A stretch of 54,006 nucleotides of DNA from [Clostridium] symbiosum (lineage in GTDB: Bacteria > Bacillota > Clostridia > Lachnospirales > Lachnospiraceae). The translations under genes and the position numbers were made by a program. Below are positions 1,589 to 8,963 of this stretch, piece by piece. Position 1 is the first letter of the stretch; every line of letters begins with the position of its first letter. The notes below the pieces were generated by a model. The model was given only the letters and a program-made list of their open reading frames with translations, ran no database searches and was not told the DNA's origin. The stretch covers positions 1 through 54,006 of the forward strand of contig JAETSN010000024.1 in assembly GCA_021769625.1 (NCBI GenBank), written 5' to 3'.

Positions 1589-2125
1589 ATGCAGGTTATG
1601 GGAACAGGATTCAATATATGGCATTTTTTTCATGACATTGGAGAAGCGGGGATGCCGATCGGATTGTTTTTGATAGATTACGGGATCATCTGGATCCCGC
1701 TGGCATGTGCTTTGACTGCAATTCCTGAGACAAGAAAGACCGGAATCGTGATGCTTGTCGGACTGGGGCTGGATGTGATATTTTGTGACGGGATCCTGAA
1801 ACATCTGGCTGTGCAGGATTCCCGTACGGGAGCCTGGCTGTTGATGGGTGTCCGATTTCGTCTTCCTTCGGGATCTGCGGCAGCTGCTTTTACCGCGCTC
1901 ACAGCGCTCTGCTTCTCCAGGGAGAATAACTTCTGGAAAGCGGTTTTGGCGATTGCCTGCATTGTTGTTTTTTCCGGGAATCATGTTCTGAACCCGACAG
2001 ATGTTGTGGGAGGCATGGCAGTTGGCGCTGTATTCGGATATGCTGGCTGCAAAATAGTGGAGGCGTTGAAACGATGCAGGGAAAAGAAAAAATATAGCCG
2101 TACGGAGATTTTTGATCATCCGTAA
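1589..2125 (+). CDS. PAP2-like membrane protein with degenerate catalytic motifs
   Basis: About 178 residues with several hydrophobic segments (IGLFLIDYGIIWIPLACAL, TGIVMLVGLGLDVIF, AVLAIACIVVFSG, VVGGMAVGAVFGYAG), resembling the PAP2 phosphatase fold. Two signature motifs can be aligned but have lost catalytic residues: the PSGH motif reads PSGS, and the SR-x5-H-x3-D motif reads SGNHVLNPTDVVGG, with the histidine position replaced. It may be a non-catalytic member or may bind lipid phosphates. Start choice is uncertain: ATG 1589 sits 3 nt after GGAGGGG, ATG 1598 sits 12 nt after it, and the open frame extends to a TTG at 1565. The stop codon lies inside the first 50-bp direct repeat (2119-2168). 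Confidence 0.6.
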   Translation: MQVMGTGFNIWHFFHDIGEAGMPIGLFLIDYGIIWIPLACALTAIPETRKTGIVMLVGLGLDVIFCDGILKHLAVQDSRTGAWLLMGVRFRLPSGSAAAAFTALTALCFSRENNFWKAVLAIACIVVFSGNHVLNPTDVVGGMAVGAVFGYAGCKIVEALKRCREKKKYSRTEIFDHP

Positions 2126-2168
2126 AAAATACGGAAGAAAACAGGGCGCGCGTATCATGTAAGTACAG
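2119..2168. repeat. 50-bp direct repeat, copy 1
   Basis: This 50-bp unit begins with the palindrome TCCGTAAAAAATACGGA and ends in a TATCATGTAAGTACAG segment. It matches copy 2 (2227-2276) at about 44 of 50 positions. It overlaps the stop codon of the PAP2-like gene. The two copies bracket a strong hairpin at the left edge of the accessory block, which would fit duplicated recombination or integration sites or a small mobile element, but no recombinase gene is present. Confidence 0.75.
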
Positions 2169-2169
2169 T

Positions 2170-2220
2170 GGCAGCGCTCCGCGTGCAGAAAGCAGATGCA
2201 GAGCAAAGCGGAGCGCTGCC
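2170..2220. promoter_or_regulatory. 13-bp stem hairpin between direct repeats
   Basis: GGCAGCGCTCCGC (2170-2182) pairs perfectly with GCGGAGCGCTGCC (2208-2220) around a 25-nt loop and is followed by TTTTCG. It could end transcription of the PAP2-like gene or be the core of a small palindromic element bounded by the direct repeats. Confidence 0.55.
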
Positions 2221-2226
2221 TTTTCG

Positions 2227-2276
2227 TCCGTAAAAAATACGGAAGAAAATAGTATGCGCGTATCATGTAGGTATAG
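2227..2276. repeat. 50-bp direct repeat, copy 2
   Basis: Second copy of the unit at 2119-2168, starting with the same TCCGTAAAAAATACGGA palindrome. It differs mainly in a 4-base stretch in the middle and two bases near the end. The accessory block begins 80 bp downstream. Confidence 0.75.
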
Positions 2277-2358: not shown

Positions 2359-2469
2359 ATGAGTATTGACTGGGAAGAACTTCTTGACGCAGAGGGAGAA
2401 GACCTCGTCGACGCTTATGATGAGGCGGTGGACGACGCAGTCTGGTGGATGGAGGGGAACGATGACTGA
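2359..2469 (+). CDS. Tiny acidic protein upstream of mazF-like gene
   Basis: A 36-residue ORF (MSIDWEELLDAEG... ending WWMEGNDD) with 14 Asp or Glu residues and almost no basic ones. A strong ribosome binding site AAAAGGAGG (2342-2350) precedes the ATG by 8 nt, which supports translation. I do not recognise the family. Because MazF-type toxins are basic and are usually paired with an upstream acidic antitoxin, this peptide could be a miniature antitoxin, but it is much shorter than MazE and lacks a visible DNA-binding domain. A terminator-like hairpin separates it from the toxin gene. It could instead be an unrelated small protein. Confidence 0.55.
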   Translation: MSIDWEELLDAEGEDLVDAYDEAVDDAVWWMEGNDD

Positions 2470-2520
2470 AAGAGGGGCCGGAACTTCAGACGAAGGCAAT
2501 CCGGCTGTCCGGGGAGGCAG

Positions 2521-2571
2521 CGTGAAATATTAAATTTCACGATCCTGACTTGAGCGCCCGCCGAAGCGGGC
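2521..2571. promoter_or_regulatory. Two palindromes in the mazF upstream region
   Basis: CGTGAAAT (2521-2528) and ATTTCACG (2534-2541) form a perfect 8-bp inverted repeat around 5 nt; GCCCGC (2556-2561) and GCGGGC (2566-2571) form a second hairpin with a CGAA loop. An extra half site GCGTGAAA recurs at 2584-2591. Such sites could be operators for an autoregulated toxin operon or hairpins in the leader RNA. No clear -35/-10 pair was found nearby. Confidence 0.45.
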
Positions 2572-2622
2572 AAACGGAAGTTAGCGTGAAAAAGAAAATG
2601 CATAAAAGATGCTTACACCGAA

Positions 2623-2677
2623 AAGGCGCATGGAAAAAACGGCAGACAGTCCGCAATGTAAACCATGCGCCTTTTTT
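2623..2677 (+). terminator. Intrinsic terminator or attenuator before mazF
   Basis: AAGGCGCATGG (2623-2633) pairs perfectly with CCATGCGCCTT (2663-2673), followed by a run of T to 2677. The loop is long (29 nt), so an alternative fold is possible. It lies 28 nt before the start codon of the toxin gene, so transcription arriving from the 36-residue ORF would tend to stop here. This allows toxin expression to be set by readthrough. Confidence 0.5.
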
Positions 2678-2704
2678 GATGCACAAAGAAAGGAGAAGAG
2701 CAAG

Positions 2705-3091
2705 ATGGGCAGAACAGGCAAAAGAAACATTAAAAGAGGAGACGTTTTATTGGCAGACCTCGGCGCACCGGGGCATGGGAGCGAGCAGGCGGGAAAACGT
2801 CCGGTGGTCGTTGTGAGCAATGACTGGGTGAACTGCCACAACCATGTATATACCGTAGTGCCGCTGACGACACAGATAAACAGGCTTGATCTGCCGACGA
2901 ACGTCCTCATCCCCGCAAACAGAGAGGAGGGAGTGACACGGGATGCGGTTGCCCTGTGTGCACAGACGAGGTCGCTTGACGCCGTGAGAATCCTCAGAAA
3001 GCAGGGAAGGCTCAACAAAGATACTCTGGAGCGCATCACAAAAGGCGTCCTGATACAGATAGGCATTGAACCTATGATCCTTTTATCATAG
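2705..3091 (+). CDS. MazF/PemK family endoribonuclease toxin
   Basis: A 128-residue MazF/PemK homologue. Family features in order: IKRGDVLLADLG at the first strand, the GSEQAGKRPVVVVSND loop with the catalytic arginine, TVVPLTTQI, LPTNVLIP, the GVTRDAVALCAQTRSLD segment with the conserved threonine/serine region, and a C-terminal helix. MazF enzymes cut mRNA at short single-stranded motifs; the target here cannot be read from sequence. The ATG at 2705 is preceded by AAAGGAG (2691-2697) and matches the family start; an upstream in-frame ATG at 2609 would add 32 atypical residues. No ordinary MazE antitoxin is adjacent. The next gene, 34 bp on, is a ClpX-like unfoldase, notable because MazE-type antitoxins are usually destroyed by Clp or Lon proteases. 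Confidence 0.93.
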   Translation: MGRTGKRNIKRGDVLLADLGAPGHGSEQAGKRPVVVVSNDWVNCHNHVYTVVPLTTQINRLDLPTNVLIPANREEGVTRDAVALCAQTRSLDAVRILRKQGRLNKDTLERITKGVLIQIGIEPMILLS

Positions 3092-3125
3092 GAAACAACA
3101 GGGCGCAGAGAAAGGAGATTTCACA

Positions 3126-4145
3126 ATGCAGTACGATAACCGGACAGCGGGAAAAAGACCGTGGTATGACGAAAGTTTTTATGAGGTTGACGATCTTGAC
3201 GACTTTGACGTTGATGAGGAATTCGATAAAGAATTCGATAAGGAGTCAGATCTGCTGCGGCAGTTTGACAGAGGAGAGAAGCTGTATGATTATCTCGACA
3301 AGCGTATCTGGAAGCAGAACGAAGCGAAGCGGGCAGCTTCCATCATACTCTTTAACTGTCTGCATCGTAACAGGAGCTCCAACGCAATGTTCATAGGGCC
3401 GAGCGGCTGCGGCAAAACATATATCTGGAGATGCTTACAGGAACTTTTTCCCGAGAGGATCGAGATCGTCGATGGGAGCAATATCACCCCGGACGGCTGG
3501 AAAGGGGATAAAAAATGGGCGAGCCTGCTGCTTTCCGACAAATTTCTGGGAAGCGGCCAGGCCATTCTTGTCATAGACGAAGCGGATAAGATGTTCATGC
3601 CAAAGACAAATTCCAGGGGGGAAAACTGGAGTGAAGTCATCCAGGGCGAGGTTTTAAAGATGCTGGAGGGAACACGGATAGATTTAGGAAGCGGCGTCTG
3701 GGTTGATACGTCCAGGATCAGTTTTATATTCTGCGGCGCATTTTCCGTGAAATCGGAAGAAATCGCGGAGAAAAAACGGAGCTGCAGTATTGGTTTTGGA
3801 AAGAGCAGCCAGAAGGTGAGAGCGTATGATGCGCCGATCGGGAGGAAGAATCTGCACGATTTTGGGATCATGACGGAAATTCTGGGCAGGATCCGCCGGA
3901 TCGTCAATTTGAAGCCTATGACGGAAGAGGATTTCTTATATATGATGGACGCCGACTGCAGCCCGGTCAGGAAACTGGAGAAAGAGTTTGGCGTTGAGAT
4001 CAGCCTGATGCCGGAAACCTGTAAAAAGCTGGTCGCGGAGGCAGCAGAAGACGGGGAGGGAATCCGGGGGATGGAGAATAAACTCTGTGTTATGCTGGAG
4101 GATGCGCTGTATGAAGAGGAAGGCAGGCAGCACTTTGTTTTTTGA
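3126..4145 (+). CDS. ClpX-like AAA+ unfoldase lacking the zinc-binding domain
   Basis: A 339-residue AAA+ ATPase that aligns with the ClpX core. Visible landmarks: Walker A GPSGCGKT (91-98), a pore-1-like loop GWKG (124-127) where ClpX has GYVG, Walker B ILVIDEADK (147-155), the segment VDTSRISFIFCGAF (193-206) matching the ClpX sensor-1 region, SIGFG (221-225) matching the ClpP-docking IGF loop, and GIRGMENKL (312-320) at the sensor-2 arginine. The N-terminal zinc finger of ClpX is absent and is replaced by about 50 very acidic residues (DDLDDFDVDEEFDKEFDKE). This fits an unfoldase that may recruit the host ClpP to particular substrates. The start has AAAGGAG 8 nt upstream. It follows the toxin gene closely and likely shares its transcript. 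The function is inferred. Confidence 0.85.
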   Translation: MQYDNRTAGKRPWYDESFYEVDDLDDFDVDEEFDKEFDKESDLLRQFDRGEKLYDYLDKRIWKQNEAKRAASIILFNCLHRNRSSNAMFIGPSGCGKTYIWRCLQELFPERIEIVDGSNITPDGWKGDKKWASLLLSDKFLGSGQAILVIDEADKMFMPKTNSRGENWSEVIQGEVLKMLEGTRIDLGSGVWVDTSRISFIFCGAFSVKSEEIAEKKRSCSIGFGKSSQKVRAYDAPIGRKNLHDFGIMTEILGRIRRIVNLKPMTEEDFLYMMDADCSPVRKLEKEFGVEISLMPETCKKLVAEAAEDGEGIRGMENKLCVMLEDALYEEEGRQHFVF

Positions 4146-4224
4146 GTGCCGTAAGGGTATCTGCGGAAGCAACGGATAAGTGTTATATGAGTGTCTGTGG
4201 ATCCGGGATAGAAGGAGGGATTTT

Positions 4225-4536
4225 ATGAAAATGAATTACAGTTTTACGAAAAACTTTCGCATGGAAAATGTCTCATTTGAGGGATTGAGCGGACAGGAGT
4301 TCGCCGGTTCTTTAAAAGAGGCGTTAGGCATCCTGAAGATTGAAGATCCTGTGATAAGCCTGCGCGAAGACATAAAAAAGGGGCGCTATAAGGATGAGGA
4401 ACTGGAGCCGGTACTTGAGGTGGTGAAACTGATCAGTTCGCTTTGGGATGATCCGGAAATGAATGTCTTAATGCTTCTTGCAGCAGCGTTTGAACTGATC
4501 AGCAGGATGCATACAGTGTTAAAACGTGTCAGATAA
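4225..4536 (+). CDS. Unknown 103-residue protein
   Basis: I do not recognise this protein. It has a short polar N-terminus (MKMNYSFTKNFRMENVSFEGLSG), then predicted amphipathic helices (EFAGSLKEALGILK, EELEPVLEVVKLISSLW) and a hydrophobic helix NVLMLLAAAFELISRMHTVL near the C-terminus that could be a membrane or packing helix. The start is taken from GAAGGAGG (4211-4218), 6 nt before ATG 4225. It sits between the ClpX-like gene and the first of two paralogous genes, 14 bp before the latter, so it is probably part of the same operon. Confidence 0.7.
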   Translation: MKMNYSFTKNFRMENVSFEGLSGQEFAGSLKEALGILKIEDPVISLREDIKKGRYKDEELEPVLEVVKLISSLWDDPEMNVLMLLAAAFELISRMHTVLKRVR

Positions 4537-4550
4537 AAGGAGAGACGCAT

Positions 4551-5519
4551 ATGGAACAGGAAAAAACAGGCAGAGAGATGATGGAAGAGATCCGCAACCG
4601 GAGGCTGCATATGAACGATATGCTCCGGGCGGTCGCCGATGTGGTAGATGGTTATGATTATGATTATTCACGGCCTCTTGAAATGGATCGTGATGGAAGT
4701 TGGCTGGAAGAGCTGATCGCGGAGCTGCTTGCGTCAACGCAGAAGGAGTATGAGCCTGAGAAAAGAGAACTATATTACAGTTTCCTCTATTGTACGCTGC
4801 CAGGGATCAAATGGGACTGGAATCTGTGCCATCTGTCCATGGATTATGGCGAGTATAAGCCGGCGGGGGTATTGGGGGATGTGGTACGCATGGCGCGCGA
4901 TACGTGCATATCGACACCGAAGCGCAAGGAGGATCTGCTCTATATGGAGAGCGCAAACTATACGGATGAAATACGGGGATTTTTCGGATATATGCCGGAA
5001 GTGTGTTTTCTGCTGCGCGGAGAGAAAGTGTATTCCCTGTATACCGAGGAGGAAAAGGCGTTTGTCGGGAAGGGCAGGATAACGCTGGAAAAAAAGCGAA
5101 AGGAAACGGCATGTCCGCCGATCTGTGAGGAGCCGCATGCAGCGGAGGATGAGGATGAATCCGACACTTTGTCCGGGGTGGAAGCAGGCAGCGCAGTAGA
5201 ACGCGCGAAAAAGCGTATCGTGAGGCGCATCTATGATCCCGAAAAATATATCCGAAATTATCTGCGTTTTCGGGAACTGTCTTATACAGGCACTGTAAAA
5301 GGAGAGCTTATCTGGGACAGGGAGAAATTTTTGAGCGAGATAGAAGAGATGGCAGACTGTTATCTTTACAGAAACGGGTGTTGTGCTTATTCGCTTGAGG
5401 AGCTTTACGGGATGGTGACGAAATGTCTGGAGCAGATGGCAGCGGAGATGCGCCAAACGATGCGGAAAGGAAAGAAGTATAAACATTGGTTGGAAACCGG
5501 AGACAGCCTGCGGAACTAA
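4551..5519 (+). CDS. Unknown paralogous protein 1 (322 residues)
   Basis: No family recognised. It is soluble, helical and acidic. It is clearly paralogous to the product of 5786-6865: shared landmarks include ELYYSFLYCTLPGIKW, GDVVRMARDT, LYTEEEKAFV, YLRFRELSYT and AYSLEELYGMVT. The middle (about 190-215) is a low-complexity acidic linker that differs from its paralogue, suggesting two domains: an N-terminal helical domain and a C-terminal domain starting near DPEKYIRNYLRFRE. The ATG follows AAAGGAG by 9 nt. It ends just before a family B hairpin element, after which the paralogue has its own promoter. Confidence 0.8.
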   Translation: MEQEKTGREMMEEIRNRRLHMNDMLRAVADVVDGYDYDYSRPLEMDRDGSWLEELIAELLASTQKEYEPEKRELYYSFLYCTLPGIKWDWNLCHLSMDYGEYKPAGVLGDVVRMARDTCISTPKRKEDLLYMESANYTDEIRGFFGYMPEVCFLLRGEKVYSLYTEEEKAFVGKGRITLEKKRKETACPPICEEPHAAEDEDESDTLSGVEAGSAVERAKKRIVRRIYDPEKYIRNYLRFRELSYTGTVKGELIWDREKFLSEIEEMADCYLYRNGCCAYSLEELYGMVTKCLEQMAAEMRQTMRKGKKYKHWLETGDSLRN

Positions 5520-5521
5520 AA

Positions 5522-5633
5522 AACAGCATGCAGGCAGATAGTGCACAGCTTCATTTACGGACGCATTTTTTAGCGGCCGGAAATGTAAGCTCCATCCTTG
5601 TGTACTATCTGCCTGCCTGCGGAACTAGAATAG
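5522..5633. repeat. Family B structured repeat, copy 1
   Basis: The outer stem GCAGGCAGATAGTGCACA (5530-5547) pairs with 5599-5616 at 17 of 18 positions. An inner stem AGCTTCATTT/AAATGTAAGCT encloses GACGCA and GCGGCCGG. The left flank is AACAGCAT and the right flank is TGCGGAACTAGAATAG, both shared with copy 2 at 13331-13436 although the outer stem sequences differ completely. It lies between the two paralogous genes. Confidence 0.7.
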
Positions 5634-5695
5634 AAAGGCGGTAAAAATGCGCAGAAATATATCAGGTCCACGCGGACAGCCGGAGTGGATAAGTT

Positions 5696-5724
5696 TTGAC
5701 GCAAGATGGGCTGTATGTTACAAT
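5696..5724 (+). promoter_or_regulatory. Sigma-A-type promoter inside the accessory block
   Basis: TTGACG (5696-5701), a 17-nt spacer and TACAAT (5719-5724) give a strong vegetative promoter about 60 nt before the start codon at 5786. CGCGGACA occurs on both sides (5671-5678 and 5737-5744) and may be a direct-repeat operator. This would drive the 359-residue, 382-residue and sigma-factor genes separately from the toxin and ClpX-like genes. Confidence 0.65.
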
Positions 5725-5785
5725 TTAACAATGTACCGCGGACAAAAAGAAAATCTGTCTGCGACCGATGAAAAGGAGAAAAATC

Positions 5786-6865
5786 ATGAATCAGAATGAA
5801 ATCAGAGAGGCAAAAAGAACACTTTATGAGCGCCGGACACGTATGGAAGATCTGCTGGAGCAGGTTGGAGACGTGATAAGCGGATATAGTAAAACCTATG
5901 AGAATAAGATCATAAACGACGAGGGGATTGTGGATGATGCGCGCCTCGAGGAGCTGATCACACAGATCATGTCCACAGCGCACAGAGATTACAGTCCGGA
6001 AGAGGAGGAACTGTACCGCAGCTTTCTCTACTGCACGATACTTGGGATCGCCTGGAAGAGTTACATTTCTTCCCCGGAAGACTTTGAGAGGGAACCGTTC
6101 GAGCCGGCGCAGGCCTACGGGGACATCGTCCGCATGGCACGCGGTACAGGGCGGTCGGCGTGCAAAAACAGAGCGGATCTGCTGAAAGCGGAGTGCGGGT
6201 ATTTCTCATACAGCTTCCATGACTTTTTTGCGTATGCGCAGGAAGTGTTCTCTTTGCTGGGAGGAGACGTGGCGGGTTCTCTTTTTACGGAGGAGGAAAA
6301 AGCGTTTCTTGAGCGGGAGATAGAGCTTTTCAATGAAAAGAGAGCCAAAGCGTTTGATGACTTTTATGCCGGGAACGAGGAGAGGGAAAAAGACCGGATG
6401 GCGGAGGATCCTCTCTATGCGGAAGAAGTAAGGCAGCGGGAAGAACTTTCAGATGCGGCGAATGAGTCGCTGGCTGTCAGGTTGGAAAGCGGAGAGGATT
6501 CGTATGATATTCTTTACGGCAGCCCGGAGGAAGAGGAAGAAGATTCCTGGTGGGTAGAATTAGCCAGACAGCACGAGGTAGGGGAAGCGATGGTCCTGCA
6601 CCGTATTCCGGACGCCGAAAAGTATAAGAGGTATTATCTGCGCTTCAGGGAACTGTCCTACACGGAGGGCGTAGAGGGGAAACTCACCTGGGATGGAGAG
6701 GCGTTTGCCGGCGCGATAGAGGAGATGGTCGATCTCTACCTCTATGAGCAGAGGCTGTCCGCCTATTCGCTGGAGGAGACATACGGGCTTGTGACTGACA
6801 GCGTAAAACAGCTGCCCGGTATTGTGCGGGAGGCAGTGCGGAAAGCGAGGAGGTACGATAAATGA
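5786..6865 (+). CDS. Unknown paralogous protein 2 (359 residues)
   Basis: Paralogue of the 322-residue protein, of unknown function. Matching blocks include ELYRSFLYCTILGIAW, YGDIVRMARGTGRSACKNRADLL, LFTEEEKAFLE, YLRFRELSYTEGVEGKLTWD and AYSLEETYGLVTD. The linker between the two domains is longer and strongly acidic (about 190-255, with EEEEEDSWW). No catalytic motif is obvious; the duplicate genes may form a hetero-oligomer or act on different partners. The start ATG 5786 has AAAAGGAG 7 nt upstream. The stop overlaps the next start in an ATGA-type junction (6862-6865), so translation is coupled to the 382-residue protein. Confidence 0.8.
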   Translation: MNQNEIREAKRTLYERRTRMEDLLEQVGDVISGYSKTYENKIINDEGIVDDARLEELITQIMSTAHRDYSPEEEELYRSFLYCTILGIAWKSYISSPEDFEREPFEPAQAYGDIVRMARGTGRSACKNRADLLKAECGYFSYSFHDFFAYAQEVFSLLGGDVAGSLFTEEEKAFLEREIELFNEKRAKAFDDFYAGNEEREKDRMAEDPLYAEEVRQREELSDAANESLAVRLESGEDSYDILYGSPEEEEEDSWWVELARQHEVGEAMVLHRIPDAEKYKRYYLRFRELSYTEGVEGKLTWDGEAFAGAIEEMVDLYLYEQRLSAYSLEETYGLVTDSVKQLPGIVREAVRKARRYDK

Positions 6866-8010
6866 TAGAGAGCCGTGAAGAACTGGGCAGGAAGCTGGTG
6901 GAGGAGTATGAAACGCACAGGGCTGATGAGTCTTATGAAGAAAGCCTGCTCTACCGGTATTTTAGGGAGAGAGAAGAGCGCCGCGCGAGGGGAAAACTGC
7001 AGTCGGAGAAATCCGTGCGGGAATTTCTGGCGGATAAGGAGGAAGAAAAAGAGTATTATCTGCGTCTGAGGGTCGCGTATCTGGCTATGGGTGATGAATA
7101 CCGGTATATTACCCGGGAGGAGTACCAGGCGGCCAGGGATGCGCTGGTGGATCAGCTGCTCAAACAGAAAAAGATGTCGGCAAAGACAAAGGCAAGCCTG
7201 CCCGGCGAGTCACAGGAGGAGTTGGAGGATCGCCTGCTGAAAAAGCAGGCGGCCGACTTTGCCTACAATGAGAAAAGGGAGCGCAGTTCAAAGAAAGAGA
7301 GTGACGACGTCAGGCTGTTACGTTTTTTTGAACAAAACAGCGGGCAGGGGGACATACCTGCCCGGGATGCGGGCATGCCAAAGGAGCAGGCGGCGGGAAA
7401 GTTTGACGAAGCGCTGATAAAGAAGTGCGAAAAGGTATGCCGCCTGCTGCGGGACGATATGCAGAAAAAGGAGCAGACCAGGGTCATTTTACCGCTATAT
7501 GTGGAGGAAGGCACAGGCGCAGGCCTCTATCTTATGGGACGCGATAATATCCCGGAGACGGAGATCCCGAAGGCTCACAATGGGTTTCCATGTTATCCCT
7601 GTGTCATCTGCTATGAGGAATGTGCCAGAGAGAGAAAGATCAAATGGGGCAGCGCCAGGATAAAAGGGATCCCGATGGACGACCGCCGGATGGTCTTTTA
7701 CATGTCGGTGAAAGGGTTTTTCACGGTGGGGGAGGCTGTAGAGTACTTAAAGGCCCTGAAAGAAAACGGCAGCCTGAAAAACGGTTACCGGCTGGATAAT
7801 GCGGCGATGGAATATGATGTGCCGCCGAAGGAGCTGGACACAGAGTTTTCTTCTTTCTTCTATGCGGATAAGAGTCCGCAGATTCTGGGCAAAGAGGATC
7901 TAAGCGAAGAGGAGCGGGAGATCATAGAGAGGGAGGACAGGGAAGAAGAGGACGCAAGGCGCAGAGAAAAAGCACGCCGGGGAAGATCCGGAGGACCGGA
8001 TGGCCGATAG
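6862..8010 (+). CDS. Unknown charged protein sharing a module with the paralogues (382 residues)
   Basis: Unknown family. The N-terminal third is rich in Glu, Arg and Lys helices. The stretch EEEKEYYLRLRVAYLAMG (about 58-75) followed by YITREEYQAARDALVDQLL resembles the C-terminal YYLRFRELSY domain of the two upstream proteins, so the three genes may share a module. A globular C-terminal half contains VILPLYVEEGTGAGLYLMG, YPCVICYEECARERK (cysteine pair) and RMVFYMSVKGFFTVGEAVEYL. The last 30 residues are almost entirely charged and probably disordered. The start overlaps the upstream stop by 4 nt. The sigma-like gene follows 20 bp later. Confidence 0.75.
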   Translation: MIESREELGRKLVEEYETHRADESYEESLLYRYFREREERRARGKLQSEKSVREFLADKEEEKEYYLRLRVAYLAMGDEYRYITREEYQAARDALVDQLLKQKKMSAKTKASLPGESQEELEDRLLKKQAADFAYNEKRERSSKKESDDVRLLRFFEQNSGQGDIPARDAGMPKEQAAGKFDEALIKKCEKVCRLLRDDMQKKEQTRVILPLYVEEGTGAGLYLMGRDNIPETEIPKAHNGFPCYPCVICYEECARERKIKWGSARIKGIPMDDRRMVFYMSVKGFFTVGEAVEYLKALKENGSLKNGYRLDNAAMEYDVPPKELDTEFSSFFYADKSPQILGKEDLSEEEREIIEREDREEEDARRREKARRGRSGGPDGR

Positions 8011-8030
8011 GAGAGGAGATTGTTTCAGAT

Positions 8031-8963
8031 ATGGAACCGGAAGTAAAAAAGGTTGAAGCAGGGATAGCTGATAAAGATGTGCGCAACAGAGAGTTAGTCA
8101 GGCGGTATCGGGAAGGCGATAAGGAGGCCGGGAATCTTCTGCTGGAAGAGAATGACGGGCTGCTGAGGAAGGCTGTCAACAGTCTGAAGGGGTTCCGGCA
8201 CATGGAAGAGGATCTTCTGCAGGAAGCCAGGCTGAAAATGATCACGGAGATAGCGGAGAAGTTTGATCTGCAGCAGAATAAGGTCAGGTTCAGTACCTAT
8301 GCTTTTCAGTGTGTATCCCGGATGGTGAGAGATATTGTACGCAAAGAGTCGAAAGAAGAAGTATCGTTGGATAAGCCGGTCGGAGAAGACAGAGAAACGC
8401 TGCTGGACTTCATACCGATAGACATAAACAGTATATCAGCGGAAAAGGGAGGAAATCCGGAGAATACTGTGCTGCGCAGGGAATACTACGCGGAACTGGA
8501 AAAATTTATAGACAGCGGATTCCTGACGGCAGGCGAACAGGCGGTGATAAGGGGGATCGTGAGAGGGAAGGGAAATAGGGAAATCGGCGTCGGGCTGTAC
8601 CGAAAAGACGGGGAGATAGAGAAGATGAAAAAGCGGGCGCTTGAAAAGGTGATGTATGCCGGAGAGAGGGAAGCATTGTTTCCGAAATACGCCGCCGGGT
8701 ATATCTTTGATCTGTCGCTTACAAACGAAGGCGACACCAAATGTAATGCGGCGCTGGAACAATTTTTGAAGGACGGCGGCTTTCTGACAGCAAGTGAACG
8801 GGCAGTGATAAGAGGGACCGCTGCCGGGGACGGATATGATGAAATTGGCGCAAGGCTGCACCGCGAAACGTGGGAGATAGAGAAGATCGAAAAGAGAGCG
8901 CGTGAAAAGATGATGTACGCCCGGGACAGAGAGGAGTTGTTCCCCAGAGGGTTTCTGGGTTGA
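8031..8963 (+). CDS. Sigma-70-like factor with tandemly duplicated region-4-like unit
   Basis: A 310-residue protein. Residues about 20-105 look like sigma-70 region 2 (LVRRYREGDKEAGNLLLEEN, MEEDLLQEARLKM, and RFSTYAFQCVSRMVRDIV for the 2.3/2.4 part). The C-terminal half contains two similar units, about 156-218 and 243-306: each has FLTAGEQAVIRG or FLTASERAVIRG, then EIGVGLYRKDGEIEKMKKRA or EIGARLHRETWEIEKIEKRA, then MYAGEREALFPK or MYARDREELFPR. Each looks like a region 4 helix-turn-helix. Two such units in tandem are unusual. It could direct RNA polymerase to promoters of this block or act as an adapter. The start follows AGGAGAGGAG by about 12 nt. It is the last gene of the block and converges on prs. 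Confidence 0.8.
   Translation: MEPEVKKVEAGIADKDVRNRELVRRYREGDKEAGNLLLEENDGLLRKAVNSLKGFRHMEEDLLQEARLKMITEIAEKFDLQQNKVRFSTYAFQCVSRMVRDIVRKESKEEVSLDKPVGEDRETLLDFIPIDINSISAEKGGNPENTVLRREYYAELEKFIDSGFLTAGEQAVIRGIVRGKGNREIGVGLYRKDGEIEKMKKRALEKVMYAGEREALFPKYAAGYIFDLSLTNEGDTKCNAALEQFLKDGGFLTASERAVIRGTAAGDGYDEIGARLHRETWEIEKIEKRAREKMMYARDREELFPRGFLG

Follow-up and report, generated by a model that had tools for sequence, protein, structure and literature searches.

Loss of antitoxins through Clp proteases is established in a number of systems, and MazF, an endoribonuclease toxin, can act in abortive infection. In the type VI system SocAB a toxin is held in check by ClpXP via an adaptor antitoxin, as outlined in PMC4803016, and the account in PMC7112952 describes IGF loops of ClpX that bind ClpP and RKH loops that take part in substrate recognition. 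Here we analyze a locus of [Clostridium] symbiosum (assembly GCA_021769625.1, contig JAETSN010000024.1) at positions 2359–8963 of a 54,006-nucleotide stretch, referred to as the window, in which eight open reading frames (ORFs) on the same strand encode a 36-residue acidic peptide, MazF, a ClpX-like AAA+ unfoldase (AAA), four proteins here called C, D, E and F, and a sigma factor. The locus shares with the type II MazEF/PemIK systems a toxin that is MazF by sequence and a small ORF ahead of it, but differs from them in having no recognized MazE, a terminator-like hairpin before the toxin, and an eight-gene setting with an unfoldase and a sigma factor. With SocAB, as described in PMC4803016, it would share a toxin gene tied to ClpXP-type proteolysis and a possible adaptor, whereas here the unfoldase itself is encoded in the locus. 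Our preferred reading, to which we give a probability of about 0.35, is that this accessory two-unit locus is a switchable, ClpP-linked toxin module in which a private sigma factor would drive MazF, the unfoldase and C. The parts are of known kinds, and no description of the combination of MazF, ClpX-like protein and sigma factor, of its wiring or of the split between AAA and C was found in the open-access literature.

The eight ORFs of the initial annotation, with MazF, ClpX-like and sigma genes among them, were recovered by an ORF check and profile searches, and the full set was found intact and in order between pgeF and prs in four of nine genomes of the genus (G000, the genome of the window, and G004, G005 and G008; hereafter the carriers), with AAA orthologues of 83–100% identity. 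In G001, G002 and G006, about 17–57 bp separate the matches to pgeF and prs. G007 has other cargo at this position (L054, 8860–15570), including a DegV gene, and this different content suggests that the pgeF–prs site may be a hot spot for cargo. For G003, the stretch examined, which stops at a contig end shortly past prs, showed no pgeF. The core genes first named as flanks need a correction on one side: prs is a shared neighbor, while on the left the PAP2 gene counts as accessory (present in two of the four carriers) and the shared left neighbor is pgeF. The view of the block as a self-contained accessory locus is borne out by its recurrence as a unit that includes a promoter-like element and a sigma factor of its own, and, as noted initially, no integrase was seen: neither an integrase nor a relaxase was recognized among the block genes in Pfam and NCBIfam scans, which covered these genes and not the rest of the window. 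Rare co-occurrence, named at the outset as the observation that would speak against a common system, was observed for the complete set in the samples searched outside the genus, and was not observed within it. The searches with F, C, sigma factor and E drew even samples with few genus members, so that other carriers are not counted by them. In G007 the cargo at the pgeF–prs site also includes MarR-like and XRE-like genes (named by eye). The pgeF gene of the window carries an in-frame tandem duplication of about 57 bp (1225–1335), and the core of this duplication had no other site in the nine genus genomes at two or fewer mismatches.

Gene anatomy and alignment suggest that the locus consists of two transcription units, split between D and E (Table 1). 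The spacing, first described as tight, is uneven, with a 235-bp gap between the 36-residue ORF and mazF that holds the terminator-like hairpin and a 266-bp gap between D and E that holds a sigma-A-like promoter; mazF and the AAA gene are 34 bp apart and occur together in all four carriers. The stem of the hairpin before mazF is kept in the four genomes by paired changes, including G-C to A-T and to G-T, while its loop varies in length. Both hexamers of the promoter before E are identical in the four genomes; since the whole region has 11 promoter-like matches against 7.1 in shuffles, its conservation and not its occurrence is what counts. A Shine-Dalgarno-like sequence in front of the ATG of E is likewise conserved in all four. 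Upstream of the 36-residue ORF, an element starting CCGTAAAAAATACGG is present in 1, 2 or 4 copies per carrier, 107–108 bp apart. At one mismatch or fewer, the nine genomes contain eight sites of it; every one belongs to a carrier and precedes the block. Its spaced version has no site away from the block in these genomes at two or fewer mismatches. The element reads CGTATC in G000 and G005 versus CATATC in G004 and G008, and the region-2 part of the sigma factor has two forms that divide the carriers into the same pairs, which in four genomes can be only a hint. In G000 the spacer before mazF also holds an insertion with a short hairpin (2515–2590), absent from the other three carriers, whose core is single-copy in the window.

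The toxin matches Pfam PF02452 (E = 1.5e-25, 89.9 bits against a cut-off of 23.1), and by sequence the solved structures closest to it are MazF chains (E about 3e-18). All nine genus genomes have another MazF at 30–33% identity to that of the block (the G003 match contains a stop, and in G000 the gene follows what by eye is an alr-like gene), and G005 has a third at 36%. A search for MazF relatives returned 20 loci, eight of which were examined (43–50% identity); a serine recombinase or resolvase-type gene lies near seven of the eight, within stretches of at most 3.4 kb, six of these genes scoring above the Pfam cut-off and that of L115 just below, and none was found in the stretch of L121 examined. 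The 36-residue ORF ahead of the toxin has the same length in all four carriers, with 72–81% identity to the window and a TTG start codon in G005. No MazE-like antitoxin was recognized among the block proteins, this ORF included, with Pfam, NCBIfam and PHROGs, in which an ORF so short could be missed; we infer that it encodes either an antitoxin or a leader peptide.

The unfoldase matches the NCBIfam ClpX model NF003745 (E = 9.1e-27, 93.9 bits) below the equivalog cut-off of 359. Aligned to the genome's own ClpX, it resembles the ClpX of ClpXP in its AAA+ core, Walker A and B motifs and IGF motif, as well as in the arginine-finger GR and the sensor-2 arginine. It differs in the loss of the zinc domain and RKH loop, in a GWxG pore loop, in its size of 339 residues and in its separate branch. 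These traits hold across a set of 14 block-type AAA proteins, of which 11 were read at full length and three as matched segments only: GWxG stands in place of the GYVG of ClpX in all 14, the RKH loop is found in none, and IGF is present in 13, that of the window included, the exception being the distant L082 with LAGF. The N-terminal zinc-domain cysteine pattern, which the genome's own ClpX has, is missing from all 11 full-length proteins. In a phylogenetic tree the 14 block-type proteins stand apart from ClpX and ClpX-like paralogues (support 87/100), and the 11 split-type ones among them group together (support 94/96), both with long-branch warnings. The genome of the window has a second ClpX-like protein of about 530 residues with the zinc-domain pattern (L038, G000:C42), long ClpX-like frames similar to it occur in many genomes of the family, and one contig carries three ClpX-like genes inside 8 kb (L034, G012:C9).

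One genome-contig scan returned at least 13 loci with AAA relatives, three of them genus orthologues and ten from outside the genus (several only 3–7 kb long), so that relatives of AAA–C do exist outside the even draws described above. Among the matches listed, C lies directly downstream of AAA in all seven loci at 46–53% identity. Two loci at 35–37% have no separate C by tblastn and instead carry a C-like segment N-terminal in the AAA protein (profile E 1.7e-8 and 1.5e-5 in a set of 20 sequences, positions 38–93 and 39–83 of 117), and one locus at 31% showed no C. MazF, sigma factor, D/E and F were not detected in any of the ten; the usual neighbor of AAA outside the genus, again among the matches listed, is C and not MazF. 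In ten proteins chosen for scanning, SSB was found in three of six AAA loci and ParB in one of six. No AAA relative of at least 60% identity was present in 72,556 plasmid records or in 50,697 phage records, where the 69 plasmid and 93 phage records that matched all did so below 60%, and a search with C in 299 family genomes matched only its own genome.

These neighborhoods bear on how the unfoldase and the toxin might be connected. According to the initial annotation, AAA and ClpP would destroy a MazF antitoxin, which could be the 36-residue peptide, D, E or F, and thereby arm the toxin. The close and constant pairing of mazF with an IGF-bearing ClpX-type unfoldase in the carriers and the Clp-dependent loss of antitoxins in other systems are consistent with such a step, but no antitoxin was identified in the block, and the occurrence of AAA–C without detectable MazF in seven of seven outside loci makes antitoxin removal unlikely as a general job of AAA; the idea is possible without specific support, and we consider it unlikely. 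The relation may also be the reverse, with AAA, C and ClpP degrading MazF itself and C serving as a proteolytic adaptor, by analogy with SocA for SocB. C is a small and regular neighbor of the unfoldase, as an adaptor might be, and a toxin restrained by ClpXP has its precedent in SocAB, whose toxin and adaptor belong to families different from those of the block. However, C accompanies AAA elsewhere without MazF, and we regard this reversal as quite improbable.

The sigma factor matches TIGR02937 (E = 1.6e-17, 63.6 against a cut-off of 42.9) and falls below the Pfam cut-offs for Sigma70_r2 (23.8 versus 24.0) and r4 (11.7 versus 24.1); regions 2 and 4, expected of a sigma-70-family member, are both present. 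In this it resembles sporulation and ECF-like (extracytoplasmic function) sigma factors, but it reaches no equivalog cut-off in the best 25 NCBIfam rows and differs in a tandem duplication of region 4 (residues 154–219 and 240–306), in which 40 of 66 aligned residues are identical and the alignment score is 185 versus 49 for the best of 1000 shuffles. The duplication is present in all four carriers, and at E 1e-16 or better the protein was found in one of 200 genomes, its own.

Of the three proteins first described as related unknowns, D and E are indeed paralogues (40–41% identity), while F proved unrelated to the D/E profile by hhalign (probability 0.3, E 0.18). Neither these nor C had a significant family match in Pfam, NCBIfam, PHROGs or PADLOC. 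A search with F in 295 genomes of the order matched only its own genome. For E, three of 250 genomes gave a match (its own, G114 and G031), and that in G031 was set aside as 26% identity over 90 residues of a 2717-residue frame. The E-like gene of G114 (hhalign probability 73, E 3e-5) is followed by an F-like gene, whose kinship to F is weak because it rests on this position and a 20-residue match (hhalign probability 0.35, E 0.17); used as a query in 299 genomes, the F-like gene found only itself. A ClpP gene, itself next to a gene for a conjugative coupling protein, is located 2.7–4.1 kb from the two genes.

The eight genes are under purifying selection, with ratios of nonsynonymous to synonymous divergence (dN/dS) of 0.10–0.57 relative to G000, the highest being that of the 36-residue ORF with few changes. 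Between G000 and G004, synonymous divergence is 0.28–0.62 for mazF to sigma and 0.72 for the 36-residue ORF, versus 0.70–1.34 for the reference genes clpX, prs2, clpX2, duf512 and prs, the margin between AAA and clpX being small. For the 5' part, the closely related G004 and G008 show the opposite order: the 36-residue ORF to D show 0.37–0.82, versus 0.04–0.12 for clpX, prs2, clpX2 and prs and 0.01–0.05 for E, F and sigma, and identity jumps from 84% to 99% at the D–E gap. The locus is mosaic and has undergone horizontal exchange, and the divergence values together with the identity step indicate that its parts move between species as modules. The neighbors pgeF (0.43) and duf512 (0.27) are also raised in this pair, so that exchange may extend beyond the block.

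Patchy presence, horizontal exchange and mosaic alleles are frequent in defense loci, and with a MazF able to act in abortive infection the block could be an anti-phage or anti-plasmid locus. PHROGs relatives of MazF (E 1.1e-23), AAA (9.6e-23) and sigma factor (1.3e-19) indicate that their general kinds occur in phages, and five viral-contig scans, with the alignments of AAA, C, D/E, F and sigma as queries and MazF not among them, gave no confirmed relative. However, the only defense-family matches in PADLOC are weak (DolB for AAA and a CARF-type model for sigma, each at E 1.4e-5) and the block is flanked by housekeeping genes, pgeF and prs, and a dedicated defense function has a low probability in our judgment. 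That the block is a patchwork of leftovers from conjugative or recombinase elements with no joint function, as the recombinase genes near MazF relatives, SSB and ParB near AAA and the G114 neighborhood might suggest, is similarly improbable given eight genes intact, in the same order and under purifying selection, with a common locus-specific element, in all four carriers.

We therefore return to the toxin module as the preferred reading, in which we infer all regulatory and biochemical steps. The second unit (E, F and sigma) would be transcribed from the conserved sigma-A-like promoter, and the sigma factor would bring RNA polymerase to the repeated element before the first unit. The hairpin after the 36-residue ORF would end most transcripts and leave the acidic peptide in excess, restraining MazF, while read-through would yield MazF, AAA, C and D. 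AAA would form a ClpX-derived ring that docks on host ClpP via its IGF loop, with C taking over substrate choice from the zinc domain that ClpX has and AAA lacks. Some trigger, possibly the arrival of a mobile element, would alter the substrates of this alternative ClpXP, upon which MazF would cut RNA and growth would stop. Several points weigh against this proposal. Recognition of the element by the sigma factor is presumed, and binding of AAA to ClpP is predicted from an aligned motif of three residues. No role has been assigned to D, E or F, and the structure models of C and E were of insufficient quality for use. The 36-residue ORF has no match in Pfam or NCBIfam and one weak PHROG match, to a 58-residue family of unknown function (E 0.009). 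In addition, unfoldase and toxin may be only loosely connected, because AAA–C occurs without MazF or sigma factor in the outside loci.

Table 1. Genes and sequence features of the locus (window coordinates).
Feature	Position	Strand	Remarks
Promoter-like element, copy 1 (CCGTAAAAAATACGG...TATCATGTA)	2120..2161	+	
Strong hairpin followed by TTTT	2170..2224	+	Between element copies; RNA fold of G000 gives a 13-bp GC-rich stem
Promoter-like element, copy 2	2228..2269	+	131 bp upstream of 36-residue ORF
36-residue acidic ORF	2359..2469	+	15 D/E, no K/R
Terminator-like hairpin (AAAAGGCGCATGG / CCATGCGCCTTTTTT)	2621..2677	+	Just 5' of mazF ribosome-binding site
MazF/PemK-type endoribonuclease, 128 aa	2705..3091	+	Open frame from 2609; PF02452
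ClpX-like AAA+ unfoldase, 339 aa	3126..4145	+	No zinc domain or RKH loop; IGF motif present
C, 103 aa, AAA neighbor	4225..4536	+	
D, 322 aa, paralogue of E	4551..5519	+	
Sigma-A-like promoter, TTGACG-17-TACAAT, extended TG	5696..5724	+	D–E gap, before E
E, 359 aa, paralogue of D	5786..6865	+	Open frame from 5768; start at ATG 5786
F, 382 aa	6862..8010	+	Start overlaps E by 4 bp
Sigma-70-family factor, 310 aa	8031..8963	+	Tandem duplicate of region 4

A wider proposal, which we advance tentatively and consider possible but on balance doubtful, is that AAA–C represents an undescribed class of ClpP-coupled machine on mobile elements, in which a separate protein replaces the substrate-choosing domain of ClpX. 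In this genus it would have been combined with MazF and the orphan families D/E and F, all controlled by a private sigma factor and promoter, to give a growth-arrest or defense locus that is exchanged and whose 5' and 3' modules recombine in cassette fashion. If so, a ClpX-type unfoldase could switch substrates by giving up an entire recognition domain in favor of a separately encoded protein, gut commensals would have a toxin locus under its own sigma factor, and two families of no known role (D/E and F) would be tied to sigma-based control of that locus. The gut bacteria that carry the locus, members of one genus, have it at a single fixed chromosomal position, and related species appear to exchange parts of it.

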